NCBI GenBank assembly: GCA_023053575.1
Contig: JAKZAP010000009.1
Location: 20,627,869-20,691,868 of the forward strand
Direction: 5' to 3'
DNA from: Branchinecta lynchi
Lineage: Eukaryota; Arthropoda; Branchiopoda; Anostraca; Branchinectidae
Length of the DNA stretch: 64,000 bases
Part shown: positions 17,690-44,800 of the stretch, piece after piece
Layout of the letters: every line of letters starts with the position of its first letter
Position numbering within the stretch: position 1 is the first letter of the stretch
Position numbers and translations under genes: made by a program
The notes under the pieces: model-generated
Databases searched by the model: none
What the model saw: the letters and a program-made list of their open reading frames with translations, nothing else
What the model was told of the DNA's origin: nothing

Positions 17690-17935
17690 CCCCTCCCCCA
17701 CCCCTAAATGTAGTGCTACATAGCCCATCTACGAACTTGACTGGTCCGACGACCCAACGAATCCTCACACCAAGTTTCATCAAAATATCTCACTCCCTTC
17801 GAGAGTTATCGTGCTTACAGACGGACGGACAGACGGACGGACGGACGGACGGACGGACGGACGGACGGACGGACAGACGGACAACTTTTGCGATGTCATA
17901 GGTATCCCTCCACTTACGTTTTGGGATCCCAAAAA
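17690..17935. repeat. Dispersed repeat with a (GGAC)n microsatellite
   Basis: The segment CACACCAAGTTTCATCAAAA ... GAGAGTTATCGTGC, then a GGAC tetranucleotide run (about 17821-17882), then TTTTGCGATGTCATAGGTAT and GTTTTGGGATCCCAAAAACT. A second copy at 50155-50355 has the same order but lacks the GGAC expansion, so the microsatellite grew inside an existing repeat. Confidence 0.85.
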
Positions 17936-20160
17936 CTTATATTGACCGAACCTGGTATCGGATTTTGTTCAACAGCATCTCATTCGATGGGGAACAGTCA
18001 GTTTAATGTTCTATTAAAATATGAAAACGATCAGTTATTATTTGTTGAGTTCAGAGATTAAACCGCAACTTAATTTTAATTATTTTCTTGATTCTGTTGC
18101 CAGATTAGTGGGTGAAAGACTTATATTGAGCGAACCTGGAATCGGATTTTGTTCAACAGCATCTCATTTGATGGGGAACAGTCAGTTTAATGTTCTATTA
18201 AAATATGAAGACGATCAGTTATTATGTGTTGACTTCAGAGATTAAACCGCAACTTAATTTTAATTATATTCATGATTCTATGGCCAGATTAGTGGGTGAA
18301 AGACTTATATTGAGCAAACCTGGTATCGGATTTTGTTCAACAGCATTTCATTCGATGGGGAACAGTCAGTTTAATGTTCTATTAAAATATGAATACGAAC
18401 AGTTATTATTTGTGGACTCCAGAATTTAAACCGCAACTTAATTTTAATTATTTTCTTGATTCTTTTGCAAGATTAGTGGGTGAAAGACTTATATTGAGCA
18501 AACCTGGTATCGGATTTTGTTCAACAGCATCTCATTCGATGGGGAACAGTCAGTTTAATGTTCTATTAAAATATGAATACGAACAGATATTATTTGTGGA
18601 CTCCAGAATTTAAACCGCAACTTAATTTTAATTATTTTCTTGATTCTTTTGCAAGATTAGTAGGTGAAAGACTCATATTGAGCGAACCTGGTATCGGATT
18701 TTGTTCAACAGCATCTCATTTGATTGGGAACAGTCAGTTTAATGTTCTATTAAAATATGAAGACGATCAGTTATTATTTGTTGACTTCAGAGATTAAACC
18801 GCAACTTAATTTTAATTATTTTCTTGATTCTATGGCCAGATTAGTGGGTGAAAGACTTATATTGAGCAAACCTGGTATCGGATTTTGTTCAACAGCATCT
18901 CATTCGATGGGGAACAGTCAGTTTAATGTTCTATTAAAATATGAATACGAACAGTTATTATTTGTGGACTCCAGAATTTAAACCGCAACTTAATTTTAAT
19001 TATTTTCTTGATTCTTTTGCAAGATTAGTAGGTGAAAGAATCATATTGAGCGAACCTGGTATCGGATTTTGTTCAACAGCATCTCATTCGATGGGGAACA
19101 GTCAGTTTAATGTTCTATTAAAATATGAAGACGATCAGTTATTATATGTTGACTTAAGAGATTAAACCGCAGCTTAATTTTAATTCTTATCTTGGTTCTG
19201 TCGCCAGATTAGTGGGTGAAAGACTTATATTGAGCGAACCTGGTATTGGATTTTGTTGAGCAGCATCTCATTCGATGGGGAACAGTCAGTTTAATGTTCT
19301 ATTAAAATATGAAGACGATCAGTTATTATTTGTTGACTTCAGAGATTAAACCGCAACCTAGTTTTAATTATTTTCTTGATTCTGTCGCCAGATTCGTGGC
19401 TGAAAGACTTATATTGAGCGAACCCGGTATGGATTTTGTTCAATAATATCTCATTCGATGGGGAACAGTCAGTTTAATGTTCTATTAAAATATGAAGACG
19501 ATCAGTTATTATTTGTTGACTTCAGAGACTGAACCGCAACTTCAAGTATTTTCTTGATTCTTACGCCAGATTACTGGGTGGAAAACTTAGATTGAGCGAA
19601 CCAGGTATCGGATTATGTTCAATAACACCTGATTCGATGGGGAATAGTCACCTTAATTTTCTATTAAAATATGAAGACGATCAGTTTATATTTATTGACT
19701 TTACATCGTAAACCGCAACAATAACTAATTTATTGATACTGTCACCATACTGCTGGCTAAAATACTTCTATCTAGCGAACCCGGTATCAGATTTTGTTCA
19801 GTAGCATTTAATTCAGTGGGGAATAGTTATTTTATTGTTCTATTAAAATATGAAAACGATCAGTTTATATTTGTTGACTTTACATCGTAAGTCGCAACAT
19901 AATAATCAATAGTTTCTTGACTCTGTCACCATAAAGCTGGCTAAAATACTTCTATCTAGAGAACTAGGTATCGGATTTTGTTCAATAACATCTCATTCGA
20001 TGAGGAATAGTTATTTTAATGATCCATTAAAATATGAAGACAATCAGTTTATAATTGTTTATTTTACATCCTCAGCCGCAACATATTTATGAATGGGGGA
20101 AATATTCTGGGGAAATAGCATTATCTAGCGAGCCGAGTGTCGAATCTTTTCTGTTAGATT
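17936..20160. repeat. 184-bp satellite, array 2
   Basis: About twelve units at a 184-bp period (for example 18021, 18205, 18389, 18573, 18757, 18941). The unit shares GCGAACC, TCGGAT.TTGTTCAACAGC, ATCTCATTCGATG and AACCGCAACT with array 1 but is a separate subfamily, with GGGGAACAGTCAGTTTAATG. Units decay towards the right end, where element copy A begins. Recurrent 74-residue ORFs are an effect of the repeat. Confidence 0.93.
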
Positions 20161-20206
20161 GGAAACCCTCTAGCACTGTCGAGAACTTCGTCACTGGATT
20201 AGTCAG

Positions 20207-20558
20207 GTAAGGCTATGTTCACTTTTTCGTGCTTTTTACATGGCTGGAATGGTGATGTTGCATGAAACCGCAATTCCGGGTGTTTTATTGTCAAGACAAG
20301 ACACTGGCAAAAATTTTAAGATTCCCGTTTCTCCATTAGTCTTTAGGAAGAACCGTCACATAATTGTAAATTATTTCTGCAAAATTGATCTTTTTTAGGC
20401 ATCAAATGTCGTTTGTTGATAAAAGTTATTAGCTTTGTATTAGCCGCAGTAAACTTTGTCTCAGCTATAATCTTTCGCTTTTAACATATTGGGAGTAAAT
20501 CCTTGTAGAACTTCTGAATTCAGACTTCATTTCTTCTTCTAATGTTAAGATTCTTTAG
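20207..20558 (+). other. Predicted 5'-leader intron of copy A
   Basis: Donor AGTCAG|GTAAGG at 20206/20207 and acceptor TTCTTTAG|GATG at 20558/20559 are matched by the same donor and acceptor in copy B (35689/35690 and 36363/36364). The acceptor lies one base before the start ATG, so the intron would place the promoter and first exon at the very 5' end of the element. Confidence 0.65.
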
Positions 20559-20559
20559 G

Positions 20560-24614: not shown

Positions 24615-24778
24615 GCACCTACCATCTAGATGCCTTCCCCTGAACCCCTTACGACCCTGCCTACCCCCGGATTCGCTACTGTCTTAACAGAGGATGTGAC
24701 CTACTGGGGAACCTCTATAAAAAAATACGCCTATAGCCTTGACCCCTTGGGTGGTGTGGAACAAAGGCCATGCGTCAA

Positions 24779-24862: not shown

Positions 24863-25655
24863 AGATCGGAGCGCCCGTGAAGGCTTCCAAGCCCGACTCT
24901 GTAGCCAGCCGCTTCATGCTACCAAGCCCGACACTCTCGACCTTCAGAGCCAATCCTTATCCCGAAGTTAAGGATCCAATTTGCCGATTTCCCTTACCTA
25001 CATTCGTCTATCGCCTAGAGGCTGTTCACCTTGGGGACCTGATGCGGATATCGGTACGGTCTGGTGGGATCGTTCACGTGGCCCTCCCCTTGGTTTTCAA
25101 GGGCCGGTAGAAACGCACGGACGTCGGACAAATGCGACGCTCTTCGGAAACATATCCCTATCTCTCCACGACAGAATTCCAGGGACGTTGCTACCTTAAG
25201 CAGAAAAAAAAACTCTTCCCGGCGTCTCCACCAGCGTCCCAAGGATTATTCGTGTTGCCACGACGAGCACGAGAGCTCAAACGGTTCCCCAACCAGGCTC
25301 CCGAATGAGAACGGGATTCCCTTTCGCCTATCCACGAGCTCGCACGTCTACGCCCTAGGGAGATGCGCTCGTCATGGACCCATTTCAGGTTCGGCTTAGG
25401 ACCGACTGACCCATGTCCAACCACTGTTCACATGGAAACCTTCCCCACGTCAGGCCTCAAGGATCCCTCTTGTACTACCACCAAGATCTGCGCCACCGAC
25501 CGCTCCATGCAGGCCCACGCCAAAACCCTTCTACGCGATCGGTGCGACCTCCCTACTCACCGGCGTGTCAGCGCCAGCCACAAGGGCCGACGAGCTTCAC
25601 GTCCGGCGGTCCGGTATAAGCACAACGCTATAGCGCCTCCCATTTTAAGGGCTAG

Positions 25656-25687
<32 letters not shown>

Positions 25688-25845
25688 AAGCGGGTTCCGA
25701 CCTCCATGGCCACCGTCCTGCTGTCTGGAGCAACCAACTTCTTTTCGTGGGATCCGGAATATGCGTTGTTTAGGCGCTTTAACCGAACGTTTGGTTCATC
25801 CCATAGCGCCAGTTCTGCTTACCAAAAGTGGCCCACTGGGCACTC
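24863..25845 (-). rRNA. 28S rRNA fragment 1 (internal piece, not functional)
   Basis: Reverse-complement 28S sequence, collinear with 27015-28003 of the larger copy at a few substitutions (for example the missing GAGTATTTG-type bases near 25472). It has ends inside the 28S gene on both sides: ATCGGAGCGCCCGT on the left and GGCCCACTGGGCACTCG on the right. The many ORFs in this stretch are chance frames in rRNA. Confidence 0.93.
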
Positions 25846-26490
25846 GTCTGGTGACAGCACAGACAATTTACCACGACGGCAATGAGAACCCGTTATTTGA
25901 ATATTTATCTTCAAAAATTGTCGTGAGAACCTGATGAATAACAAGTTCACACGATAAATTTGAAGATATGTCAGACAAAGAACGGGTTCTCACTACTTTT
26001 TTGAAGATATATCTGAAAATCCCCTGTTCGTCACGCACTGGAAATTTCAAAGTCTCTTTTCTCGTCCTAATATATTTTCTAAAATTCTATAACTCCTTCA
26101 GATGATTCCCTACGTAGGTATTTACTATATTCCAGAAGCACAAGCCTAAATGAGCTATATTTTTTTTACATTGAGCTAGCCTTCAATATCTACGTGCATT
26201 CCATAGCTGCTAGTCCACTCTTGTTATCGTCAGAGTCGAAACAAAAATTGAGACTAATTAATTGTTCCACTCGCCAAACAAGCTGAAGAGCAATTAATTG
26301 TTCGTAAATAAGGCTATAAACACTTAGTGCGATAGCCCCTGACCGTCTGGTGCACTTATAGACTATTTACAACGAAGGCAGTGAGAACCTGTTATTTGAA
26401 GATATATCTTCAAAAACTGTAGTGAGAACCTGATTGAAGAATCCCATTCTGACATGTCAGAACGAACTACCAGTGCCGAACCCGTTATAA
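25846..26490. repeat. Diverged GTGAGAACC-type satellite between 28S fragments
   Basis: Contains GTGAGAACCTG, GAACGGGTTCTCAC, CTAAAATTCTATAACTCCTTC and AGAAGCACAAGC, all diverged matches to the satellite at 41810-45238. About two to three degenerate units; no gene. Confidence 0.7.
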
Positions 26491-26596
26491 CCTCAACAGG
26501 GTCTTCTTTCCCCGCAGACGTAACCAGGCCCGTTCCCCTGGCAGTGGGTTCGCTAGACAGTAGATAGGGACAGTGGGAATCTCGTTAATCCATTCG

Positions 26597-26632
<36 letters not shown>

Positions 26633-26806
26633 TGCGACATATGTATTCTTTGGCCCCGACTAAGGTGGGGGGCTCTCACCGTACAACAATGCGGCCATCC
26701 GCGGTGCCGTGCAGTGGGATCAAGCCCTGGCAAATCCGCGAATGACCCAACCACATATAAATTTAGTCCCCCGCCGTTTACCCGCGCTTCGTTGAATTTC
26801 TTCACT

Positions 26807-26840
<34 letters not shown>

Positions 26841-26864
26841 CGTCAACACGCGATGGCGCCTTCG

Positions 26865-26898
<34 letters not shown>

Positions 26899-27814
26899 CT
26901 GGATCGTGCCAGTTCTGAGTTGGTCGTTCGTTGAGGGCCGAGGCGATCGGCAGACGCTCTTGCGAGATCCACCGCCGCAACTGCGAGGGCCATCCACGGC
27001 CGGCTTGAGAAGGGATCGGAGCGCCCGTTAAGGCGCCCAAGCCCGACTCTGTAGCCAGCCGCTTCCTGCTACCAAGCCCGACCCTCTCGACCTTCAGAGC
27101 CAATCCTTATCCCGAAGTTAAGGATCCAATTTGCCGATTTCCCTTACCTACATTCGTCTATCGCCTAGAGGCTGTTCACCTTGGGGACCTGATGCGGATA
27201 TCGGTACGGTCTGGTGGGATCGTTCACGTGGCCCTCCCCTTGGTTTTCAAGGGCCGGTAGAAACGCACGGACGTCGCACAAATGCGACGCTCTTCGGAAA
27301 CATATCCCTATCTCTCCACGACAGAATTCCAGGGACGTTGCTCCCTTAAGCAGAAAAGAAAACTCTTCCCGGCGTCTCCACCAGCGTCCCAAGGATTATT
27401 CGTGTTGCCACGACGAGCACGAGAGCTCGAACGGTTCCCCAACCAGGCTCCCGAATGAGAACGGGATTCCCTTTCGCCTATCCACGAGCTCGCACGTCTG
27501 CGCCTGAGGGAGATGCGCTCGTCATGGACCCATTTCAGGTTCGGCTTAGGACCGACTGACCCATGTCCAACCACTGTTCACATGGAAACCTTCCCCACGT
27601 CAGGCCTCAAGGATCCCTCTTGAGTATTTGCTACTACCACCAAGATCTGCGCCACCGACCGCTCCAGGCAGGCCCACGCCCAAACCCTTCTACGCGATCG
27701 GTGCGACCTCCCTACTCACCGGCGTGTCAGCGCCAGCCACAAGGGCCGACGAGATTCACGTCCGGCGGTCCGGTATAAGCACAACGCTATAGCGCCTCCC
27801 ATTTTAAGGGCTAG

Positions 27815-27846
<32 letters not shown>

Positions 27847-29290
27847 AAGCGGGTTCCGACCTCCATGGCCACCGTCCTGCTGTCTGGAGCAACCAACTCC
27901 TTTTCGTGGGATCCGGAATATGCGTTGTTTAGGCGCTTTAACCGAACGTTTGGTTCATCCCACAGCGCCAGTTCTGCTTACCAAAAGTGGCCCACTGGGC
28001 ACTCGGATCCGAAATCCCCGCCGCACATCAAGTTCGGCTGGGCTTCTCACCCATTGAAAGTTTGAGAATAGGTTGAGGCCGTTACGGCCCCAAGGCCTCT
28101 AATCATTCGCTTTACCGGATGAGACTCCGTCTCCTTGCATTGAGCGCCAGCTATCCTGAGGGAAACTTCGGGAGGAACCAGCTACTAGACGGTTCGATTA
28201 GTCTTTCGCCCCTATACCAAGCTCCGACGATCGATTTGCACGTCAGAATCGCTGCGGTCCTCCATCAGGGTTTCCCCTGACTTCGACCTGGCCAGGCATA
28301 GGTCACCATCTTTCGGGTCCCAACGTGTACGCTCTTGGTGCGTCGCATCCGCAACGGGATCGCGACGCCCCGGGGATGCGCCCGAGCCACCGAGGTGAAA
28401 CGGGATCTCCCCTCAGCACCGCAAGCAGTGCCTTCACTTTCATTTCGCCTTCGGTCTTTATCAACCTACGACTCGCGCACATGTTAGACTCCTTGGTCCG
28501 TGTTTCAAGACGGGTCGGATGGGTCCCGCCTACTTCCTGCGCGTCCGCGGGCATGGGCCCCGTGGCCGACAGTCTTGCGACTCGCCACGATTGCCCCGCG
28601 GACTCTAGAAACGAACCGAGCCAGCGCCGGGAGACGAGCCCTCGGAGCCGAAGCCCCTCGAAACAAGTTCCGTCTGACGCCGCCCCAGTCACGTGCAGGA
28701 TACGAATCCGCCCGGGAGTACACGCCCGCACAGAGGCACCGCCCCAGCCACGCGATCCACGGCAAGCCGCAACCGCGCTACCGAGACAGACATTGCACGA
28801 ACGCTGATCCCGAAACGGCTCGAGCTTCGAAGGTCCATCCGTTTAACCCCCTGGAGGATTTCACGCACTATTGAACTCTCTCTTCAAAGTTCTTTTCAAC
28901 TTTCCCTCGCGGTACTTGTCCACTATCGGTCTCGTATCCATATTTAGCCTTAGATGGAGTTTACCACCTGCTTAGGGCTGCACGCTCAAGCAACCCGACT
29001 CTAAGGAGACTCCCATGAGCCTTCGAACACCAGTCCTAAGGGCCTGACACCCGCTTTGGGCAATCGAGCCACATTCATGAGGACTTTAGACTTGGTGAAC
29101 GAGGGTTCAAGGAGCTCCTAAACACCGCATCGGCCGAGCCGCGGCCGTGAGGCTACGACCGGCCCTTGGTGCTGGGCTCTTCCCTCTTCGCTCGCCGCTA
29201 CTAGGGGAATCCTTGTTAGTTTCTTTTCCTCCGCTGACTAATATGCTTAAGTCAAGCGGGTCGCCTCACCTGAGCTGAGGTCAGAGAATA
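26491..29290 (-). rRNA. 28S rRNA, 5' two thirds (3'-truncated, interrupted)
   Basis: Reverse-complement 28S from its 5' start (GACCTCAGCTCAGGTGAGGC followed by the AAGCATATTAGTCAGCGG landmark near 29230-29280) to the conserved GAAGACCCTGTTGAG, where similarity stops at 26491. About 2.8 kb is collinear except for an insertion at 26633-26769. Because the 3' part is missing and there is an insertion in the conserved core, this copy is probably not a working gene. Confidence 0.93.
26633..26769 (-). mobile_element. 137-bp insert at the R2 target site in 28S
   Basis: On the minus strand, conserved 28S reads ...GGTAAACGGCGGG, then 137 bp of foreign sequence, then TAGCCAAATGCCTCGTCATC. In the universal 28S gene these are separated only by about 22 bases ending TTAAGG. 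The right edge is exactly the point after which R2-family elements insert (TTAAGG^TAGCC), so this looks like a heavily 5'-truncated R2-type copy, with a 22-bp target deletion at its 5' side. Sequence family itself is unproven. Confidence 0.65.
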
Positions 29291-29810
29291 GGTTTGGTTG
29301 AGGTCTCACGACTGAGAACACTCGCCGGCAACGATAAGTTCCATCGAGCATCGACGTAACCCGTGAATAGACAGTTCCAGCGTATCGGGACCATCGTCCA
29401 CAAGACTCGCCGCGTCCGGTACCGTACGTTTATGTGCCCATCCCTTCCGTCTCACTCTCTAGTGCCATGTTCAAGACTTGCCCTCTCGTCTCCTGATCAT
29501 TCACCTTTCCTTCCTCTTAGTGACAACGAAATGAATTATTCAAAGCACATCCCGGCTACCGCGTATTTTCGCGCCACGTGCGCTACTCTGCGGTGACCAG
29601 GCGTACGCCCCAGCGGCAAACCTCACGAACGACGTTCCCCAGCTAGCCTGCGAACAGGTGCCGGATCTCGTCGGACATTGCCATACATTTAAGAAGGTTG
29701 CCCTGAACGGCAGCGAGGCCATCGGGAATCCTCCCAGATTACGAACCCAGGGAGCGTTAGGTTTCACCCCACCGCGTACCAACTCCCAGTCGTATGTATA
29801 TAATAAACCG
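29291..29810 (-). other. ITS2
   Basis: Spacer between the 5.8S and 28S landmarks, about 520 bp, with no recognisable repeats. Confidence 0.8.
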
Positions 29811-29966
29811 ACCCTCAGCCAGGTGTAGTCCAAGCCAGAGGCTGGACTGCCATGTGCGTTCGAAGGATAGACGTTCCATGTGTCCTGCAGTTCGCATGGA
29901 ATCACGCGTCTAGCTGCGTTCGTCTTCGTGATACGAGCCGAGTGATCCATCCCCCAGGGTCATTTC
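29811..29966 (-). rRNA. 5.8S rRNA, divergent
   Basis: Reverse complement contains GGATCACTCGGCTCGT, GAACGCAGCTAG, CTGCAGGACACA and CGAACGCACATGGCAG, the conserved order of 5.8S. It has unusual changes, for example GAAGACGAACGCAGC where most animals have GATGAAGAACGCAGC, and CATGGCAG where most have CATTGCGG. Its length (about 156) is normal. Either a fast-evolving lineage or a decaying copy. Confidence 0.85.
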
Positions 29967-31020
29967 TAGGTTTTCTCATCGGATTTTCACCCGAATAAGA
30001 AGAGTCCACAAGCAACGGTTCAACAATAAAACGAGTGTTTCTCACAAAACAACAAACTCCGAGGCGAGAAATTAATCTCTCCTCCAATCCAAAGGACTGC
30101 GGCGGATACTGCGGTAATTGCTGGTTCAATTGCGACTCGATCCCGGCGGGCCTTCGTCCTCGGCACGCAACAAGGGGGCCACTCAACTCCGTCCGTCGAC
30201 ACGGGAGATTCGCAAAATCACCAACGCTCTTTGCAGCCGGTTCCAATCGTATAGCGCGATCCACTCCTAGCGGGTCTTCTTCCCTTGGCGCACGACAGGG
30301 GGGCCAAAGGAATTCTTCCCGCGGCAACGGAGTTGCACACAACGACAAACGCCCCGCAACATCGCCTCCAGTTCGATCGTCAAGTGCGCTTCGATCCTAG
30401 CGGGCCTTCGTCCTCGACACGCAACAAGGGGGCCGCTCGAACTCGAGTCCCGCGACAACGGAGATGCGCACGAGGTCAAACTTTCGGCAACTCACAGTCT
30501 GCTCGGCTGTATAGCGAGATTTTCTCCTAGCGGGCCTTGGTCCTCGACACGCAACAAGGGGGCCACTCAACCCGAGTCCCGCGACAACGGAGATTCGCAC
30601 AACATCAAAACAGACTGCTTTACACAACCCTCTGGTTGTCTGGAAGCAAACAGCTCGTGTCCGACACGATTCCACCTCCTAGCGGGCTTCCTTCCTTTGG
30701 CACGCAACAAGAGGGCCAAAAGGAATTCTACCCGCGGCAACGGAAGCTGCGCGTCATCTACTCGCCATTCGCGTCTCAGACGAACACGCCGGTGCAGAGT
30801 CCTCGGTCATGCGCTCTTCGGCCGGCGGGTTTCTCTTTGGGCGCGCGCTACAGGGGGTAGCCCAGTGGAATCCCGCTACTCAAAGATTCGTGCTCTGACT
30901 TTGGTCTCCGATTCAGCGTGCCCTTTTCCCCGTCCGCGGAAGCCAGCAAAGCCGCAAGGCTTCACCCGACATCCCGCGTCCGAGTACTTTCATCACAATG
31001 CGCACGGTTAGTGCAGCACT

Positions 31021-31023
<3 letters not shown>
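29967..31023 (-). other. ITS1 with about six internal repeats
   Basis: About 1.06 kb between 5.8S and 18S. A unit with CTAGCGGGCCTTCGTCCTCG and CACGCAACAAGGGGGCC recurs at about 30146, 30268, 30398, 30528, 30680 and 30823, at 115-150 bp spacing, each followed by a CGCGACAACGGAGAT-type segment. Reading frames here are by-products. Confidence 0.85.
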
Positions 31024-31081
<58 letters not shown>

Positions 31082-31169
31082 AAGGATCAAGTTTGAACAT
31101 CTTTCAATCAACACCGAAGCCATCCAGAGGACGGCCCGGCGGATCGTCCGAAGTTCTCACTAAATCATT

Positions 31170-31215
<46 letters not shown>

Positions 31216-31646
31216 ATCGACGCAAGCTAATGACTTGCACCTACTAGGGATTCCTGGTTCATGGGGATCCTTGCAGTCCCCAATCCCAACCACGAAAGAG
31301 GTTCAGCGGTTACCCGGTCCTCTCGGACAGGGAAGACGCGCTGATTCTTTCAGTGTAGCGCGCGTGCGGCCCAGGACATCTAAGGGCATCACAGACCTGT
31401 TATTGCTCACTTTCATATGGCTAGACGCCACTTGTCCCTCTAAGAAGAGTAACGTACCCGAAGATACGTCATCTATTTAGCAGGCTAGAGTCTCGTTCGT
31501 TATCGGAATTAACCAGACAAATCGCTCCACCAACTAAGAACGGCCATGCACCACCACCCACCGAATCAAGAAAGAGCTCTCAATCTGTCAATCCTTCCAG
31601 TGTCCGGGCCTGGTGAGGTTTCCCGTGTTGAGTCAAATTAAGCCGC

Positions 31647-31695
<49 letters not shown>

Positions 31696-31868
31696 TTTGC
31701 AACCATACTTCCCCCGGAACCCAAAAACTTTGGTTTCCCGGAAGCTGCCCGCAGAGTCATTGAAGTAACGTCTGCGGATCGCTGGTTGGCATCGTTTATA
31801 GTTAGAACTAGGGCGGTATCTGATCGCCTTCGAACCTCTAACTTTCGTTCTTGATTAATGAAAACATT

Positions 31869-31899
<31 letters not shown>

Positions 31900-32432
31900 G
31901 CGACGGTCCAAGAATTTCACCTCTAGCGTCGCAGTACGAATGCCCCCGTCTGTCTCTATTAACCATTACCTCAAGTCCGGAAAACCAACAAAATAAGACC
32001 GAGGTCCTATTCCATCATTCCATGCTGTGATATTCAGGCGCGGAGCACCTGCTTTAAGCACTCTAATTTGTTCAAAGTAAACGTACCGGCCACCCAGGAC
32101 ACTCGGTTAAGAGCACCCCGGACAGTCCGGTGGATTGTCCAATCAAGGCAGTGCACACCGCGAGGCGGCACCACCTGATCGCGACCGATATCCAACTACG
32201 AGCTTTTTAACCGCAGCAACTTTAATATACGCTATTGGAGCTGGAGTTACCGCGGCTGCTGGCACCAGACTTGCCCTCCAATAGGTCCTCGTTAAAGGAT
32301 TTAAAGTGTACTCATTCCAATCACAGGGCCTCGGATGAGTCCTGCATCGTTATTTTTCGTCACTACCTCCCCGTGCCGGGAGTGGGTAATTTGCGCGCCT
32401 GCTGCCTTCCTTGGATGTGGTAGCTGCGTAAA
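31024..32432 (-). rRNA. 18S rRNA, 3' three quarters (5'-truncated)
   Basis: Reverse-complement 18S from its 3' end (CTTCCGCAGGTTCACCTACG, TAATGATCC at 31024) up to GCTACCACATCCAAGGAAGG at about 32432. There the sequence changes directly into the 184-bp satellite (TGCGTAAACACTATTGTAAA), so roughly the first 380 bases of 18S are absent. Not functional as it stands. Confidence 0.95.
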
Positions 32433-33374
32433 CACTATTGTAAACATTAATAACTTCGTTATTTTTTCGTCATTTTGCTGGGGGAAATACATTTATCTTG
32501 CGAACCAAACATCGTATGTGATTGGACAAGAGCTCATTGGATGGAGAACAGCCGGCCTAATCTAAAGACAAAATTTGAAGGCGATCGGCCTATAATGTCG
32601 GACTCGCCTGCAGAAACACTATTGTAAATATTAATAATTTCGTGAATTTGTCGCCATTTTGCTGGGGGAAATACATTTATCTTGCGAACCAAACATCAAA
32701 TTTGATTCGACAAGAGCTCATTGGATGGAGAACAGCCAGCTTAATCTACTGACAAAATTTGAAAGCGATCGGCCTATAATCTCGGACTCGCCTGCAAAAA
32801 CACTATTGTAAATATTAATAATTTCGTGAATTTTTCGCCATTTTGCTGGGGGAAATACAGTTATCTTGCGAACCAAGCATCATATGTGATTCGACAAGAG
32901 CTCATTGGATGGAGAACAGCCGGTTTAGTCTAGTGATAAACTTTGAAGGCGATCGGCCTATAATTTCGGACTAGGCTGCGTAAACACTATTGTAAATATC
33001 CGTAATTTCGTGAATTTTTCGCCATTTTGCGGGGGGAAACACATTTATCTAAGGATCCAATGATCGAATGTTATTCGGGGATATCTCATTCGATGCGCAA
33101 TTTTAAGCTTAATATACTATTAAAGTTTCAAGGTTATCCGCTATCACCTTGTGAATTTACAGCTTACAGCTTAAGGATTAAGGCCGCCAGTGCAGCTTCC
33201 CGACTGTTTAGCTCCTCCCACAAAAGACATACCCAGCTTACAAAGTACCGTGTTGGATGGAAAAAGGTCGGATGTTATTCGGGAATATTTTATCCGGTTG
33301 CACATAGGACAATTAATCTACTATTAAAGTTTCAGGTTGATCAGCCTGTAACTTTTGACTCTACAGCTTAAGCC
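32433..33374. repeat. 184-bp satellite, array 3a
   Basis: Units with GATTCGACAAGAGCTCATTGG, GATCGGCCTATAAT and CATTTTGCTGGGGGAAATAC at 184-bp spacing (GGCCTATAAT at 32587, 32771, 32955). It begins immediately at the broken 18S end. The last two units (33040-33370) are strongly diverged. Confidence 0.92.
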
Positions 33375-33815: not shown

Positions 33816-35646
33816 CCATTTTGCTGGGGGAAATGCATGTATCTAGCGAACCAATCATAGAATGTGATTCAACAAGAGCTCATTGGATGGGGAACATCCG
33901 GCTTAATCTAGTGAGAAACTTTGAAGGCGATCGGCCTATAATATCGGACTAGGCTGCGTAAATACTATTGTAAATATCAATAATTTCGTGAATTTGTCAC
34001 CATTTTGCTGGGGAAAATGCATGTAAATAGCGAACCAAGCATCGTATGTGATTCGACAAGAGCTCATTGGATGGAAAACAGCAGGCTTAATCTAGTGATA
34101 AACTTTGAATGCAATCGGCCTATAATTTCAGACTAGGCTGCGTAAAAACTATTGTAAATATCAATAATTTCGTGAATTTGTCGCCATTTTGCTGGGGGAA
34201 ATGCATGTATCTAGTGTACCAATCATCGAATGTGATTCAACAAGAGCTCATTGGATGGAGAACAGCCGGCTTAATCTAGTGAGAAACTTTGAAGGCGATC
34301 GGCTTATAATATCGGACTAGGCTGCGTAAATACTATTGTAAATATCAATAATTTCTTGAATTTGTCACCATTTTGCTGGGGAAAATGCATGTAAATAGCG
34401 AACCAAGCATCGTATGTAATTCGACAAGAGCTCATTGGATGGAAAACAGCAGGCTTAATCTAGTGAGAAACTTTGAAGGCGATCGGCCTATAATCTCGGA
34501 CTAGGCTGCGTAAACACTATTGTAAATATCAATAATTTCGTGAATTTGTCGCCATTTTGCTGGGGGAAATACATTTATCTTGCGAACCAAACATCGTATG
34601 TGATTCGACAAGAGCTCATTGGATGGAGAACAGCCTGCCTAATCTACTGACAAAATTTGAAGGCGATCGGCCTATAATCTCGGACTCGCCTGCAGAAACA
34701 CTATTGTAAATATTAATAATTTCGTGAATTTTTCGCCATTTTGCTGGGGGAAATACATTTATCTTGCGAACCAAACATCGTATGTTATTGGACAAGAGCT
34801 CATTGGATGGAGAACAGCCGGCCTAATCTAAAGACAAAATTTGAAAGCGATCGGCCTATAATGCCGGACTCGCCTGCAGAAACACTATTGTAAATATTAA
34901 TAATTTCGTGAATTTGTCGCCATTTTGCTGGGGGAAATACATTTATCTTGCGAACCAAACATCGTATGTGATTCGACAAGAGCTCATTGGATGGAGAACA
35001 GCCAGCTTAATCTACTGACAAAATTTGAAAGCGATCGGCTTATAATCTCGGACTCGCCTGCAAAAACACTATTGTAAATATTAATAATTTCGTGAATTTT
35101 TCGCCATTTTGCTGGGGGAAATACATTTATCTTGCGAACCAAGCATCGTATGTGATTCGACAAGAGCTCATTGGTTGGAGAACAGCCGGTTTAGTATAGT
35201 GATAAACTTTGAAGGCGATCGGCCTATAATTTCGGACTAGGCTGCGTAAACACTACAGTAAATATAAATAATTTCGTGAATTTGTCGCCATTTTGCTGGG
35301 GGAAATGCATGTATCTAGCGAACCAATCATCGACTGTGATTCGACAAGAGCTCATAAGATGGAGAACAGCCGGCTAAATCTAGTGATAAACTTTGAAGTC
35401 GATCGGCCTATAATTTCAGACTAGGCTGCGTAAACACTATAGTAAATATACAATAATTTCGTGAATTTGTCACCATTTTACTGGGAGAAATGCATGTATC
35501 TAGCGAACCAAGCATCGTATGTGATTCGAAAAGAGCTCATTGGATGGCTTAATCTAGTGATAAACTTTGAATACGATCGGCCTATAATTTCAGACTAGGC
35601 TGCGTAAACACTATTGTAAATATCAATAATTTCGTGAATTTGTGTG
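33816..35646. repeat. 184-bp satellite, array 3b
   Basis: About ten units of the array 3 subfamily, up to the left edge of element copy B, where the last unit breaks at GTGAATTTGTGT. Confidence 0.92.
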
Positions 35647-35689
35647 AACCCTCTAGCACTGTCGAGAACTTCGTCACTGGATTAGTCAG

Positions 35690-36363
35690 GTAAGGTCTTC
35701 ACTTTTTCTTGCTTTTTACATGGCTGGAATGGAGATGTTTTTGTCAAGACAAGATACTGGACAAATTTTTCAGATACCCGTTTCTCCATTATTCTTTAGG
35801 GAGAACCGCCACATAATTGTAAATCGTTTCTGCAGAATTGATCTTTTTTTACGGATCAAATGTCGTTCGTTGATAAAAGTTATTAGGTTTGTATTAGCCA
35901 CAGTAAACTTTGTTTTAGCTATAATCTTTCGCTTTTAACATATTGGGAGTAAATCCCTGTAGAACTTTTGAATTCAGATTTCATTTCTTCCAACACGGAC
36001 TTCCACGGACACGGACTTTCTTCCACAGCTCTAGGCACCCCTCGAATTTTCAGTTTAATTGGCTCATAAATACATAAATACTCAATCTATTAGTAAATCC
36101 GAGACCTAACGAGAATTTATGTGGAAGCCACAGCTAACATGCGGCAAACTTTATATTTTGTTATCCTTTCATTTGTTTGTTATGACAATTTTTAATCAAT
36201 ATCTCTACTGGAACCCGTTATCTGATGTTATTCAACAGCCTTCTTATCTTACTGTAAACTGTGTTTTTAGCTATATATTTAGTTTTTTACATGTCGGAAG
36301 TAAATCGTTAAAGACGATTTTGAAATCAAAATTCATTCTTTTTCTAATTTTAATATTCTTTAG
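35690..36363 (+). other. Predicted 5'-leader intron of copy B
   Basis: Donor AGTCAG|GTAAGG (35689/35690) and acceptor ATTCTTTAG|AATG (36363/36364), both shared with copy A. About 320 bp longer than in A because B carries extra sequence at about 35995-36330 (repeated ACACGGACTT near 35994). The open frame that reaches upstream to 36119 lies inside this intron. Confidence 0.65.
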
Positions 36364-36364
36364 A

Positions 36365-39300
36365 ATGCCAAAATCAGCTAGTGAACCACCAACCATATCT
36401 GCCCCCGAACCCCTGACGACCCTGCCTGCCCCCCAAGATGACCCTCAACAACCCCTTACGACCCTGCCTGCCCCCGGACTAGCCACTGTACCCAGCACGA
36501 CTGAACTTGCCCAAGGCGATCAGAACGGAAACGAACCGCCAACCCTGATTGCTCCAGATGGAAAGAAGAATGTCATAAGAGACACAAGACGAATCTACTG
36601 GAAGATATGCCAACAATGTCACAGAACTTTCGAGTATCTCGACAAACACCTGAAAGCCAAGAGAAATGAATGCGGGAAAGACCCGCAAGGGAATCCGTGG
36701 ACGGATGCAGCCATTAAAGAAATGGTTGAGAAGGCGAAGGACATCATGGAGCAGAACCTGAAGTCAAAGATGTTTTTCTCTGGCTATCAGCTAAAAGATG
36801 TAATCCGTCGATCGGGAACCCTTCACAAGCTGTGTGACAGCCTCTATGAGATGACCGGCGTTTATTTCGACAAGACAGAGGTCGAAGACTGCGCGGTTTC
36901 GGTTGAGACCCATACTATACAACAAGGTACGACAGCAGCTCTTCAGAAGGCACCCACAGCAGCTCCTCAGCACGCCCCAACCACAGCTCTTCAGCAGGCA
37001 CCCACAGCAGCTTCTCAGCACGCCTCAACCACAGCTCCTCAAACTTCCTCAACAGCAGCACTTCAACCCCGTCCATCAACTCCATCAGCAGCACCAACTC
37101 CCTCCCAAGCTTCCCCCGTCCCTGGTTGCTCACACTTCCCAGATTCCAGCCCATCTCGACCCCAAATACCGAAAAAAGTCATGCGAGATCAGCCTATCAG
37201 GGCCGTCCGAAGTTTCTCGAAGAAGTTTGTACCATACATGTTCCCCAGCGACCCGGAAGACATCCTAGATAGTGACAATGAAGGGAGCGTCTACAGCCCC
37301 AAGACAAATAGAGAGCCAGATTCGACAGAGGAGGAGAGCGACTCGGCAATCCTAAATGTGCAAGCCGGAACAAAGAAATCAATGAAGTACACCAATCCCA
37401 TTCGCAGTGCCATGCACAAAAAAGGGCTTTATGAGGTGTACAGCCTCACAAAATGTGCACCAGAGGATCGGGAGAAAATGAAGCTGGGAGTTCAAATGAT
37501 GGAAGAGTTTAAGGCCTGGTCTTCGAGATGTGGTGACGGACTATTGAAAAAATTCAACAACCCATTTGGCTGTGCCGAGAAAATCGTCTTCTATGTCCTA
37601 GAGGGGACAAAATATAACTGGTCAAACCTACAATCAGCCCCAAGGGTTGAGTCCTTTTTTGACCAGTTGGCAGAGTGCAAGATCGCCGCGAGCACTAGGA
37701 GCAAATACGTGCAGGCCTACGAGAAGTTTGTAAGCTACATTGGATCCCGAGGATCGGCAGCGCCCTGCCAAATAAACGCGGAACATCTGGCCCAGGTTTT
37801 AAAGGCGCTTGGACACCTGGATAAGATGCAGGTTGCTCTTGCCACCACCAACAAGAGGCGCCGTGAGAGAGAGAGGGTGTTTGACCCTTCGACATTCACG
37901 TGCGATGACTTCAAAACGATGAAGACAGAAGTGGATCTGTATATGGAACCGATTCTCAAGAGGTTGGCCAAAAACAGAATGATCGAGTCAGACAGGCTGG
38001 CGGTGTCTTCCTACCTCCTTTACATGGTGAGCTATCTCTACGGTCACAGAATTGGAGTAATGCCCAACATGACCACGAAGGAGTTTTTGGAGCGACGAGA
38101 AGTCGTGGAAGCCGGACAAACATTTTTCGTGGTGCTAGTGGAAAAGCACAAAACCGCTAGCATCAAATGCGCTGGCGTAGCATTCTCCGCAAAAGAAGTG
38201 AAAGCTTGCATGGACTATCTAGCATTCGTCCGCCCATCCCTCGTTGAGAAAGAGGAGCCAGAATTCTTTCTGCTGTCGACCAGTGGTCAGAAAATCGAAA
38301 ACGCATCCCAAACATCAAGGCGATTTCTTCAGAAGATTTTCCCGGAAGGAATACGACCGGGAGTTTCCGTGCCAACACAATTAAGCATTCGTCACCTCAT
38401 CTCAACCATGAATGACCATTCGGAGGTCAGGACGCCGGATGAGAAGAAGCGAATGACTGAATACCTCTGTCACTCAGGTAAAATTTTCTTTTTGCTCTCT
38501 TCCAGGCGAAGTAATGCCTTTGTAGTCAAGTAATGCCATCGTCTGCAATTGATCTAGAAATACTTAAGCTACAGTCTATTACTTGACAAATATCATAGCC
38601 AATGCAATCATAGCCGATGTAAGACCAAGATGCAAAGAACAATTCATGCTATTATCACATATAGAAAAGGTTCCTCTAGTATCAAACACTTACAGGTAAA
38701 AGAAAATTTCTGAAACAAGTCTATATCTCTGATTTTTTCTGTTGCAGTTGAGACTGAAGAAAATCATTATAATGCGGCTCACTTTAAGAAAATAGCAGCC
38801 GGTCGACGATTGATCGATGAGACTGCCGCCGCAGCGACAAACTTTTCGGTTGGTACCAATGAACCGGAGTCCGACGAAGGAAAGAAGAAGGCGAAGCGGG
38901 TCATGTTTGATGAAGCATCGCGAAAAAGATCCGTCAATGACGTAAGTTTTTTTTCCTTAAACCTACAAGTAAACGAAATCATTTTTCTTTACACATTCAC
39001 AGTTCTCCGTTGTATCATTTCTAAACGCTTCTGTAAGACTCGATGTTATGATTGCACATAGATGCACTCATATGGATGCACATATGAATCCGTCTTTAAA
39101 AGTATTTTAGATGGTAACCTTTTGATCCTTTGTATTAACACAACTACGAGTTTTTGCTCCGCGACAACTCAGTTAACATGAAAAGTAACTCATTTTCCGC
39201 AAACTAACATAAATGCACTTACCGATTAATTTAAATTTCCTTAAGTGACTGATTTTTCTCCAGGCACTCAACAAAGTCCTGGCTGTGCGGCCAATAAACC

Positions 39301-40316
39301 CCTCGGCTGATTTCCGAACCGCCACAGTGAAGTTGGTCCGCCATTGCAACCCGGGATTAAAAGACGAGGCCCTTGTTAAGTCTGTCAAAGACTTATACAG
39401 TAAACAAATGAAGCACATCCGGGCCACTGAAGTGCTGAAGTGCATTACAGAAAAGAGAGGTCTCGGCACCAATATTGCGGATTCCCTGAATCTGGACACC
39501 TTCGGTGCAACAATCCGAAAACTGAAATATTCGGACACCGTCCCCACACTTGAACAAGTGAAGCAGCTATACCAAAACTCTATGAGCCCGAGGACGTATC
39601 CGTCAGAGCCGGTGGTTGACGAAAGACTGACGAGATGTGTACTACAGCAGACCTGGATGGGTCTCACCAAAGCCAGAAGCAACACCACCGGAGCAGGAAT
39701 TGGCGTTTTTGCCAGTTTACCTTTTTGGAAAAACCAAATAGTAGCCGAATACCATGGCAAGCGATTACCGACAAGCGTCGCCAATCCCATCATCGCTTCG
39801 CTGAGAGGCGAAGAAGATGGTGGGAATTATTTCCTACAGGCAGGAGAAATCACAATTGATGCCAGGGACGAAGTCTGCCAGTGCCACCCAGAACAAGTGT
39901 CATTCGGCCGATTGATAAACCATCAAGCGAAAGAAGATGATCCGAACCTGAAGCTCAAGCTTGTCACGATCACCTCGGAGAAATACCCAATGTTGGTGGC
40001 CACCCGGGACATAGCGGCTGGCGAAGAACTTAAGTTCGACTATGGCGTTCGTCCCGGGCAGTCCAATGAAGGCCATGACGAAACCTTTCTCTATCCTGAA
40101 AAAAAGCGTAAACAGCTGAAGGATAAGGTTGCTGCAGAGCCAGATGACGGCCGAGACTCAGGTGACGACCAAGAAGAAAGAACGAGAAAAGAAAATGAAG
40201 ACCAAGAAGAGCCAAATGAGGAAGAACAGCAAGAAAATCAAGATGAAGACGCAGAGGACGCAGAAAAAAAGAAGAAACGAAAGAAGAAGCGTAGGAAGGA
40301 CAAGAGAGATCACTAG
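36365..40316 (+). CDS. Tyrosine recombinase-SET lysine methyltransferase fusion protein (three exons, 1119 residues)
   Basis: Exons 36365-38477, 38748-38941 and 39264-40316, all joined by GT-AG introns in frame. Seen in order: Pro-rich N terminus with two LTTLPAP repeats (about 15-40); C2HC finger C82, C85, H95, C103; low-complexity linker (about 180-270); core-binding helix STRSKYVQAYEKF from residue 443; recombinase domain with R562 (GHRIGVMPN), K594/K596 (VEKHKT), R676-H677, H703 and Y712 (LCHS...NHY). The H703-Y712 spacing of nine equals that in Cre, lambda Int and XerD; the residue three before R676 is Leu, not the usual His. Exon 3: conserved linker, then SET (about 895-1040) with GAGIGVF, GRLINHQ (984-990) and GEELKFDYG (1022-1030), nearest in style to KMT5A-type SET domains, then an acidic/basic nuclear-type tail. 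Predicted role: mobilises the element and methylates a lysine on histone or another protein. The start is the ATG shared with copy A. Confidence 0.85.
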
Positions 40317-40438
40317 AGACTAGACAGAGATCATCTAGTAACTAGACAGAGGATGTGACCTACTGGGGAACCTCTATAAAAAAAATGCGCCCATAGCCTT
40401 GACCCCTTGGGTGGTGTGGAACTAAGGCTTCTTTTTCA

Positions 40439-40678
40439 GGTTTTATTTTAAGGTATATAAGGCAATATTTTATATTCTGCTATCAAACCAGGCAACAAAG
40501 AGTGAGGTGGTGCCTCATGATACCCTATGAGGTTAGAGGTGAAGTTTACCTCTGAAACAACGGAGGGGGACCTGGAACCAGGCAATTCTTTTTTTTTTAA
40601 ATAAACAATGTCTTCAGCTCATTGTTTTATCCTTCCCTAGCTATACTCGTCTATCAAAAAGAAGCGCCTACAGATCTT
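40439..40678. other. Unassigned spacer right of element copy B
   Basis: 240 bp with no ORF. It holds a poly(T) run and the small inverted motif GAGGTGAAGTTTACCTC (about 40536-40553). No similarity to the corresponding flank of copy A. Confidence 0.5.
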
Positions 40679-41043
40679 TCGTCTATCGCCTAGAGACTGT
40701 TCACCTGATGTGTATATCGGTACGGTCGGATGGGGTCGCTCATGAACTCGTCATGGACCCATTTCAGGTTCGGCTTAGGACCGACTGACCCATGTCCAAC
40801 CACTGTTCACATGGAAACCTTCCCCACGTCAGGCCTCAAGGATCCCTCTTGAGTATTTGCTACTACCACCAAGATCTGCGCCACCGACCGCTCCAGGCAG
40901 GCCCGCGCCCAAACCCTTCTACGCGATCTGTGCGACCTCCCTACTCACCGGCGTGTCAGCGCCGACCACAAGGGCCGACGAGCTTCACGTCCGGCGGTCC
41001 GGTATAAGCACAACGCTATAGCGCCTCCCATTTTAAGGGCTAG

Positions 41044-41075
<32 letters not shown>

Positions 41076-41809
41076 AAGCGGGTTCCGACCTCCATGGCCA
41101 CCGTCCTGCTGTCTGGAGCAACCAACTCCTTTTCGTGGGATCCGGAATATGCGTTGTTTAGGCGCTTTAACCGAACGTTTGGTTCATCCCACAGCGCCAG
41201 TTCTGCTTACCAAAAGTGGCCCACTGGGCACTCGGATCCGAAATCCCCGCCGCACATCAAGTTCGGCTGGGCTTCTCACCCATTGAAAGTTTGAAAATAG
41301 GTTGAGGCCGTTACGGCCCCAAGGCCTCTAATCATTCGCTTTACCGGATGAGACTCCGTCTCCTTGCATTGAGCGCCAGCTATCCTGAGGGAAACTTCGG
41401 GAGGAACCAGCTACTAGATGGTTCGATTAGTCTTTCGCCCCTATACCAAGCTCCGACGATCGATTTGCACGTCAGAATCGCTGCGGTCCTCCATCAGGGT
41501 TTCCCCTGACTTCGACCTGGCCAGGCATAGGTCACCATCTTTCGGGTCCCAACGTGTACGCTCTTGGTGCGTCGCATCCGCAACGGGATCGCGACGCCCC
41601 GGGGATGCGCCCGAGCCACCGAGGTGAAACGGGATCTCCCCTCAGCACCGCAAGCAGTGCCTTTACTTTCATTTCGCCTTCGGTCTTTATCAACCTACGA
41701 CTCGCGCACATGTTAGACTCCTTGGTCCGTGTTTCAAGACGGGTCGGATGGGTCCCGCCTACTTCCTGCGCGTCCGCGGACATGGGCCCCGTGGCCGACT
41801 GCCTTGCGA
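40679..41809 (-). rRNA. 28S rRNA fragment 2 (with internal deletion)
   Basis: Starts at GTCTATCGCCTAGAGACTG, loses about 280 bp relative to the larger copy near 40745-40755, then is collinear with 27516-28580 at very high identity and ends at GTGGCCGACTGCCTTGCGAC. Adjacent to the satellite at 41810. Confidence 0.93.
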
Positions 41810-44800
41810 CTACTAATCTCTACGTGCAGTATCTAACTCCAAGTCCATTCTTCTTATCGCTAAAGTTTAAGGACGATCGTGAGAACTGGTTATTTTCACA
41901 TATATGAGAAGAACCTGGGCAAATAACCAGTTCTCACGCTTTTTTTCTCATAGGTGAGAAAATAACCGGTTCTCACGCATTTTTTTTTCCAAGTACAATT
42001 TTTCACAGTACAATCTGTTCTAAAACTCTCTAACTCCTTAAGATGGTACCCTGTATAGTTGGCAACCTAATTCTAGGAGTACAGAGCAAATCTACGTGAA
42101 TATCTTTCTAACTGAATATTTACGAGCAGTATATAGCTCCGTCTCTATAATTAGTCCTGAATCACAATATAAACACAAGACGGGATAGCCACCGAGTTTC
42201 TGATACTGGTATAGAAGATTTCTAAGGATGACCGTGTTATTTTCTCATATACGAGAAAAAAATATCGTGAGAACCTCAGCAAATAACCAGTTCTCACGCT
42301 TTTTTTTCTCATAGGTGAGAAAATAACCAGTTCTCACGCATTTTATTTTCCAAGTACAATTTTTCACAGTGCAATCTGTTCTAAAACTCTCTAACTCCTT
42401 AAGATGATACCCTGTATAGTTGGCAACCTAATTCTAGGAGTACAGAGCAAATCTACGTGAATATCTTTCTAACTGAATATTTACGAGCAGTATATAGCTC
42501 CGTCCCTATAATTAGTCATGAATCACAATATAAACACCAGACGGGATAGCCACCGACTTTCTGATACTGGTATAGAAGATTTCTAAGGATGACCGTGAGA
42601 ACTGGTTATTTTCTCATATACGAGAAAAAAATATCGTGAGAACCTGAGCAAATAACCAGTTCTCACGCTTTATTTTCTGATAGGTGAGAAAATAACCAGT
42701 TCTCACGCATTTTATTTTCCAAGTATAATTTTTCATAGTGCAATCAATCCTAAAATTCTATAACTCCTTCAGATTGTTCTCTATATAGTTGGTAACCTAA
42801 TTCCAGGAGCACAGAGCAAACGGAAGATTTTTATTTTTAGGTTGTTCTAGCTTTGAATCTCTACGTGCAGTATATAACTCCAAGTCCATTCTTCTTATCG
42901 CTAAAGTTTAAGGACGATCGTGAGAACTGGTTATTTTCACATATATGAGAAAAAAATATCATGAGAACCTGGGCAAATAACCAGTTCTCACGCTTTTTTT
43001 TTCTCATAGGTGAGAAAATAACCGGTTCTCACGCAATTTATTTTCCAAGTACAATTTTTCACAGTGCAAACTGTTCTAAAACTCTCTAACTCCGTAAGAT
43101 GGTACCCTGTATAGTTGGCAACCTAATTCTAGGAGTACAGAGCAAATCTACGTGAATATCTTTCTAACTGAATATTTACGAGCAGTATATAGCTCCGTCC
43201 CTAGAATTAGTCCTGAATCACAATATAAACACAAGACGGGATAGCCACCGAGTTTCTGATACTGGTATAGAAGATTTCTAAGGATGACCGTGAGAACTGG
43301 TTATTTTCTCATATACGAGAAAAAAATATCGTGAGAACCTGAGCAAATAACCAGTTCTCACGCTTTTTTTTCTCATAGGTGAGAAAATAACCAGTTCTCA
43401 CGCATTTTATTTTCCAAGTACAATTTTTCACAGTGCAATCTGTTCTAAAACTCTCTAACTCCTTAAGATGATACCCTGTATAGTTGGCAACCTAATTCTA
43501 GGAGTACAGAGCAAATCTACGTGAATATCTTTCTAACTGAATATTTACGAGCAGTATATAGCTCCGTCCCTATAATTAGTCATGAATCACAATATAAACA
43601 CCAGACGGGATAGCCACCGACTTTCTGATACTGGTATAGAAGATTTCTAAGGATGACCGTGAGAACTGGTTATTTTCTCATATACGAGAAAAAAATATCG
43701 TGAGAACCTGAGCAAATAACCAGTTCTCACGCTTTATTTTCTGATAGGTGAGAAAATAACCAGTTCTCACGCATTTTATTTTCCAAGTATAATTTTTCAT
43801 AGTGCAATCAATCCTAAAATTCTATAACTCCTTCAGATGGTTCTCTATATAGTTGGTAACCTAATTCCAGGAGCACAGAGCAAACGGACGATTTTTATTT
43901 TTAGGTTGTTCTAGCTTTGAATCTCTACGTGCAGTATATAACTCCAAGTCCATTCTTCTTATCGCTAAAGTTTAAGGACGATCGTGAGAACTGGTTATTT
44001 TCACATATATGAGAAAAAAATATCATGAGAACCTGGGCAAATAACCAGTTCTCACGCTTTTTTTTTCTCATAGGTGAGAAAATAACCGGTTCTCACGCAA
44101 TTTATTTTCCAAGTACAATTTTTCACAGTGCAATCTGTTCTAAAACTCTTTAACTCCGTAAGATGGTACCCTGTATAGTTGGCAACCTAATTCTAGGAGT
44201 ACAGAGCAAATCTACGTGAATATCTTTCTAACTGAATATTTACGAGCAGTATATAGCTCCGTCCCTATAATTAGTCATGAATCACAATATAAACACCAGA
44301 CGGGATAGCCACCGACTTTCTGATACTGGTATAGAAGATTTCTAAGGATGACCGTGAGAACTGGTTATTTTCTCATATACGAGAAAAAAAATATCGTGAG
44401 AACCTGGGCAAATAACCAGTTCTCACGCTTTTTTTTCTCATAGGTGAGAAAATAACCAGTTCTCACGCATTTTATTTTCCAAGTATAATTTTTCATAGTG
44501 CAATCAATCCTAAAATTCTATAACTCCTTCAGATGGTTCTCTATATAGTTCGTAACCAAATTCCAGGAGCACAGAGCAAACGGACGATTTTTATTTTTTG
44601 GTTGTTCTAGCTTTGAATCTCTACGTGCAGTATATAACTCCAAGTCCATTCTTCTTATCGCTAAAGTTTAAGGACGATCGTGAGAACTGGTTATTTTCAC
44701 ATATATGAGAAAAAAAATATCATGAGAACCTGGGCAAATAACCAGATCTCACGTTTTTTTTCTCATAGGTGAGAAAATAACCGGTTCTCACGCATTTTAT

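Follow-up and report, generated by a model that had tools for sequence, protein, structure and literature searches.

The window analysed here is a stretch of 64,000 nucleotides of Branchinecta lynchi contig JAKZAP010000009.1, and all positions follow its numbering. It contains a gene, element B, which extends from 35649 to about 40640 and encodes a predicted tyrosine recombinase (YR) fused to a SET domain, as well as a second, diverged copy, copy A. Spliced at GT/AG sites, the three coding exons of element B form one open frame of 3360 nt, which encodes 1119 amino acids with no premature stop. A first-pass annotation of this DNA had described the same open three-exon gene. Its extent of 35647-40438 falls short at the 3′ end, where sequence common to the copies continues to about 40640. 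The features of the two copies are:

35649..35690, plus strand: predicted non-coding 5′ exon, ending in the splice donor CAG/GTAAGG
36365..38477, plus strand: coding exon 1, with the finger, the core-binding domain and most of the YR catalytic domain
36608..36673, plus strand: C2HC finger C82-x2-C85-x9-H95-x7-C103, read from the translation
37478..37864, plus strand: predicted YR core-binding domain, about residues 372-500
38048..38392, plus strand: putative catalytic residues R562 (38048-38050), K596 (38150-38152) and R676 (38390-38392), placed by their conservation among alignment rows
38471..38473, plus strand: putative catalytic H703
38748..38941, plus strand: coding exon 2, with the putative catalytic Y712 at 38768-38770
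39264..40316, plus strand: coding exon 3, with the KMT5A-like SET domain and a lysine-rich tail, including the stop codon
39696..40046, plus strand: SET domain, residues 914-1030, with INHQ and FDYG motifs (Pfam PF00856, E=3.2e-12)
40346..40438, plus strand: 3′ conserved motif 1, with 31 genome matches at 82-100% identity
40484..40584, plus strand: predicted structured RNA motif 2, with an internal gap that makes it shorter than in the sister copy L002
20164..24858, plus strand: copy A, from a diverged family, with a broken reading frame

The protein of element B comprises, in order, the C2HC finger, a low-complexity linker, a helical region, the residues R562, K596, R676, H703 and Y712, a further linker and the SET domain. 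The finger residues C82, C85, H95 and C103 are present in the translation as first annotated, and no Pfam profile reaches its cut-off on the finger. Element B probably has a non-coding 5′ exon, since copies A and B agree exactly for about 45 bases up to CAG/GTAAGG and differ beyond it. A splice acceptor directly precedes the ATG of element B (by eye). The genome searched comprises 575.7 Mb in 216 contigs (labelled C, with loci labelled L), and the region 35647-35860 has only 5 matches in it. COX1-like fragments translate with the invertebrate mitochondrial code.

The YR region contains R562, K594, K596, R676, H703 and Y712 at the annotated positions, with a spacing of nine from H703 to Y712. 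Counts of conserved residues refer to alignment rows, which overlap and are not all independent copies. R562 is kept in 32 of 36 rows, R676 in 38 of 38 and H703 in 32 of 32. The annotation had named K594/K596 among the recombinase residues; the conserved lysine of the two is K596, kept in 28 of 33 rows and replaced by arginine in five, and K594 is kept in only 13 of 33. R, R, H and Y occur in this order, as in YRs, across three families, the most distant of which are 28-31% identical. The lysine lies on a strand pair around K596 in both structure models, which are of low confidence. Structural comparison favours a YR for the core-binding domain: in a structure search with a low-confidence model, the top 8 matches are all YRs, as are 26 of the 50 rows shown. 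Foldseek places XerA chains at ranks 1-3, with E values of only 0.28-0.41. The structure model has a predicted local distance difference test score of 44, and the catalytic part of the YR has no resolved fold in it. Profile alignment to XerD falls in the expected place, with E=0.0023 (probability 13%) and 0.011 (4%) in two runs, against 0.12-0.37 for three decoys. The alignments to Cre and lambda Int (E=0.44 and 0.32) are no better than the decoys. RecX, the sole PDB sequence match of a four-row YR profile, is taken as chance. Sequence profiles barely detect a YR, and its predicted identity rests on the conservation of R, R, H and Y across families and on the structural matches of the core-binding domain.

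One YR-SET family on C17 has aspartic acid at the position of Y712 in all five of its loci (L013, L014, L015, L021 and L040, of which L021 and L040 are one copy). Methionine replaces R562 in the four loci where this position is readable. The SET exon of this family is still recognisable, with stops in L013-L015 and L021.

The C-terminal SET domain of element B, first recognised by its NHQ and FDYG motifs, has KMT5A/SET8 as its closest solved-structure match (E=6.7e-11). Both proteins share GRLINH and the RDIAAGEEL-DYG block. The domain has the catalytic tyrosine and the NH motif of a KMT5A-like SET: Y1029 is kept in 43 of 43 rows, N988 in 47 of 52 and H989 in 49 of 52. The match to SETMAR is far weaker than that to KMT5A (E=0.11 against 7e-11). 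The best NCBIfam SET match, a bacterial effector profile, is far below cut-off and is taken as general SET similarity.

Selection on the two domains was estimated as the ratio of nonsynonymous to synonymous change (dN/dS) by the pairwise Nei-Gojobori method, with at least 60 codons and a synonymous difference of 0.08-0.62. Many rows of this comparison are duplicates in which one copy bears two locus names, and some codon sets combine two or more matches. For the SET exon, dN/dS is 0.13-0.20 for A-type copies against L016, 0.09-0.18 for L005 and L006 types against L023, 0.10-0.23 for L013-L015, L018 and L021 types against L022 or L025, and 0.21-0.27 for L005 and L006 types against L019. Higher values are found for A-type copies against L048 (0.21-0.33), for L022-L025 and L023-L019 (0.51 each) and for most pairs with L061 (0.43-0.64). 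The highest are 0.72 (L016-L048) and 0.88 (L057-L061), giving a full range of 0.09-0.88. The SET exon is under purifying selection in most comparisons. For the YR, dN/dS is 0.11-1.14, with many pairs at low synonymous distance.

The in-frame fusion of a YR-like protein to SET recurs in many copies and several diverged families, in keeping with the first-pass annotation. P0001, a metagenome protein of 1180 amino acids from a JGI contig of 3936 bases, is 49% identical to element B over 1047 alignment columns. Its reading frame is open and continuous across both predicted splice joins of element B; P0001 may come from either a spliced transcript or an intronless copy. Among about 8,000 scored protein-collection candidates sharing most words, only P0001 matched (twice), and no relative of P0001 was found among viral contigs. 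Family C, on C17, has an intronless YR-SET frame that is 31% identical over 743 columns, with two stops in the copy read, and carries two C2HC fingers (read from the translation). Among the 20 best SET matches in the genome, 14 are preceded by a YR exon on the same strand at a distance of up to 4 kb. This count used 26 of the 101 YR rows, and the six misses were checked by eye against the full list of best candidates. One of the six, at C20:25429777, has lost its YR part. Since P0001 reads through both joins and 14 of the 20 SET copies have the upstream YR exon, the fusion is not a local accident.

Matches to YR and SET are spread over more than 10 contigs. Many copies are broken, with stops in many YR and SET matches, and a twin of element B on C17 has one stop in its YR region. 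Copy A, annotated at 20164-24778 as having the architecture of element B, does share its layout; its first coding exon is split over several frames. Near-perfect tandem duplications of 114 bp and 84 bp lie within its coding region, at 22325-22535 and 23750-23919. A-type and B proteins are 57-66% identical in the YR and SET matches.

Both copies in the window, like several elsewhere, sit in degenerate ribosomal DNA (rDNA) with 184-bp repeats on one side and antisense 28S pieces on the other, a setting absent from the first-pass annotation. Its features in the window are:

26522..32512, minus strand: degenerate rDNA unit (28S, 5.8S, 18S) between copies A and B
17931..20049, plus strand: 184-bp tandem repeats upstream of copy A
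33816..35643, plus strand: 184-bp tandem repeats immediately 5′ of element B
24865..25846, minus strand: truncated 28S just after copy A
40678..41811, minus strand: truncated 28S just after element B, matching 27518-28582 at 98.97% identity across 1065 bases

Compared with the 28S of the window, the piece next to copy A has 97.4% identity and that next to element B 99.0%. Antisense 28S follows the 3′ end in A, B, L020, L024 and L059, which belong to diverged families. Among 49 genome 28S matches, 14 lie within 3 kb of an element, where 0.04 would be expected under an even spread, and all 14 are on the opposite strand. Within 10 kb there are 23 of the 49, and 18 of these are on the opposite strand. 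The proximity count drew on 82 SET rows and 49 YR rows out of 101 each, and some of the 28S rows represent fragments of a single place. With motif 1 as the starting point, one of the listed 28S matches lies within 3 kb downstream in 8 of 31 copies and on either side in 13, with none in 18. Short 28S pieces outside this list adjoin three more loci (L004, L005 and L019). The 3′ flank of the element joins 28S at several different 28S positions. No copy with 28S on both sides, as in a simple insertion, was seen within the 28S stretch used as query, which ends before the 28S 3′ part. Repeats like the 184-bp units have at least 154 genome matches, most of them on C17, C18 and C22, contigs that carry elements as well, and are matched near L035, L038, L040, L042 and L043. 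They are also present on C126, C92 and C180 and at one place on C11, where no elements were seen. The association of the elements with rDNA is firm; the arrangement is not universal, and a single target site is not among the results.

The rDNA unit of the window is its only one. Its 18S has no 5′ part where the 184-bp repeats abut, and its 28S seems to end early and to be followed by unrelated repeats (both partly by eye). Tandem repeats of 369 bp at 42909-43884, which contain GTGAGAACC and GGTTCTCAC, also lie beside rDNA fragments.

Motif 2 comprises about 112 bases, and a search with the L053 relative as query gives 40 genome matches. Its alignment contains 14 of the 22 extracted copies; the 8 omitted are near-duplicates, truncated copies and the window's own shortened copy. 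RNAalifold predicts 30 pairs from the 14 copies, 8 of them with changes on both sides. In two helices taken alone, 95.5% of cells are paired, and neither this value nor the covariation score is reached by any of 500 shuffles. Both-sided changes occur in 4 of 11 pairs, a figure reached by 5 of 500 shuffles, and further pair types are not above the shuffles (443 of 500). Judged from this alignment, the sequence downstream of the gene is a conserved structured RNA. An Rfam search gives nothing above cut-off for motif 2, and weak matches at E=1.8-9.8 are taken as chance. A weak match, short of the curated cut-off (E=0.05), to a ribozyme like that of hepatitis delta virus (CPEB3 family) lies at L053:582-653.

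Motif 2 is carried as well by another dispersed repeat family, which has 17 matches of at least 95% over 201 bases (L069, L070, L086 and L088-L090; C19 and C9). Two copies of this family agree at 99.2-99.7% of positions across more than 4.5 kb. It has tandem repeats downstream and no frame above 158 amino acids in the stretches read. Neither YR nor SET is found upstream of it in about 3.1 kb of a C19 copy or about 2.9 kb of a more distant C2 copy. The idea that motif 2 is a host spliced-leader gene was dropped, because the would-be leader is not conserved between copies (by eye) and many of the copies without a YR are near-identical dispersed repeats.

Cryptons are defined by a YR without a reverse transcriptase (RT). 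In the element B protein only SET passes the profile cut-off. An RT and RNase H, as in DIRS and Ngaro, are absent from element B: there is no such domain in the protein and no frame long enough besides the exons. The longest non-exon frame touching 35647-40640 has 217 amino acids on the minus strand, such frames being outside the profile search. Direct repeats between the two conserved ends of the element, which are approximate, are not above chance. For animal Cryptons, the authors of PMC3212892 found no terminal repeats, whereas fungal and oomycete groups have short terminal direct repeats. The text available describes animal Cryptons as lacking a C-terminal domain, and the main text does not contain the word methyltransferase (PMC3212892). 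Cryptons resemble element B as RT-less elements with a YR gene and are, by description, its nearest candidate class. Element B differs from the Cryptons described there in its C-terminal SET domain and rDNA association.

HarbingerS and MuDR are DDE transposons, and the transposase part of SETMAR is mariner. SET histone methyltransferase genes have been taken up by HarbingerS and MuDR of Phytophthora (2025; PMC12730594). They share with element B a SET histone methyltransferase aboard a mobile element; they are oomycete transposons, in contrast to a YR in a single fused animal protein. SETMAR/Metnase, a chimeric SET-transposase host gene (PMC4593633), likewise joins SET to a mobile-element enzyme. 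KMT5A/SET8 is a host enzyme and, unlike element B, has no recombinase. The YRs of endogenous nimaviruses insert in 28S with an 11-mer target duplication and, like element B, are multi-exon YR genes tied to animal 28S rDNA (PMC10871703). A zinc-binding and a SAM-like domain are typical of the N-terminal part of the related majaniviral YRs, a further likeness. In contrast to element B, the nimaviral YRs are genes of large DNA viruses, and no SET is noted in the portion available (PMC10871703). An article on nematode YR elements mentions a methyltransferase domain in YR retrotransposons, and the phrase SET domain is absent from the text available (PMC4157794). No YR element with a SET domain was found among the literature matches listed, Repbase being outside the search scope. 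The annotation's statement that it knows of no described Crypton with its own SET meets no contradiction in this literature, but the wider idea has a precedent in PMC12730594. SET in transposons is already known, and the printed examples, as far as available, are other kinds of DNA transposon.

Taken together, element B probably belongs to a family of RT-less YR elements that live in or beside the rDNA of an animal, with a protein that combines a zinc finger, a core-binding domain, a YR and a KMT5A-like SET. The observations under this reading are the fusion, the residue conservation, the SET constraint in most comparisons, the multi-copy families and the rDNA setting of many copies. The finger and YR would bind and recombine the element ends and rDNA-linked sites, probably via a circular form, as has been proposed for Cryptons. 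The SET domain, carried to the same nucleosomes by the finger/YR tether, would methylate a histone lysine; lysine 20 of histone H4 is the first guess because of the KMT5A match. Methylated rDNA chromatin may then favour integration or the element's own expression. Two results weigh against this reading. The profile searches proposed in the annotation recover the SET domain and no curated integrase profile above cut-off on the YR region (Phage_int_SAM_1, E=0.093). Near-identical copies also have flanks in common, so some of the spread may be segmental duplication.

The alternative that survives best, although it is unlikely, is a decayed and immobile family that persists as repeats in rDNA-edge heterochromatin, with element B and its C17 twin as recent duplicates of one relict. 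The stops in many copies, the frameshifts in copy A, the stop in the YR region of the twin and the loss of R562 and Y712 in one family would agree with this. In contrast, element B is fully open, dN/dS of SET is well below 1 in most pairs, and an open relative occurs in a metagenome.

Somewhat less likely still is a gene lodged in the rDNA spacer that is inherited and duplicated with rDNA units and does not move by itself; its recombinase might expand or rearrange rDNA, and its SET might set the chromatin. The antisense 28S after the 3′ end in diverged families, the 184-bp-like repeats upstream of A and B and near five other loci, and the common flanks fit such a gene, and R2 is described as helping to maintain Drosophila rDNA (PMC10266012, in the text available). 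However, the A and B proteins are 57-66% identical beside 28S pieces at 97.4% and 99.0%, which indicates that gene and 28S have no single common history, and the matches occupy more than 10 contigs with many broken copies.

A more elaborate proposal, which is doubtful at present, is an rDNA-dwelling recombinase element that brings along a histone methyltransferase and a structured RNA of its own. Here the motif 2 RNA would be a trans-acting or recognition RNA, and the SET mark would license or protect the rDNA site. It is improbable that the YR region is another helical DNA-binding domain with R, K, R, H and Y spaced by chance: the lack of significant YR sequence matches, the low model confidence and the decoy-level Cre and lambda Int alignments would allow it, but R, R, H and Y keep their order in three families, both models have the strand pair around K596, YRs rank first for the core-binding domain, and the XerD alignment falls in the right place with better E values than the decoys.

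If, as the reading of an RT-less rDNA-associated YR element has it, the protein recombines rDNA-linked DNA and also methylates histones, element B would be selfish DNA able to write a chromatin mark of its own. It could then provide a naturally occurring model of a histone writer targeted to DNA, and the long co-conservation of YR and SET would offer a direct route to why mobile elements recruit chromatin enzymes.

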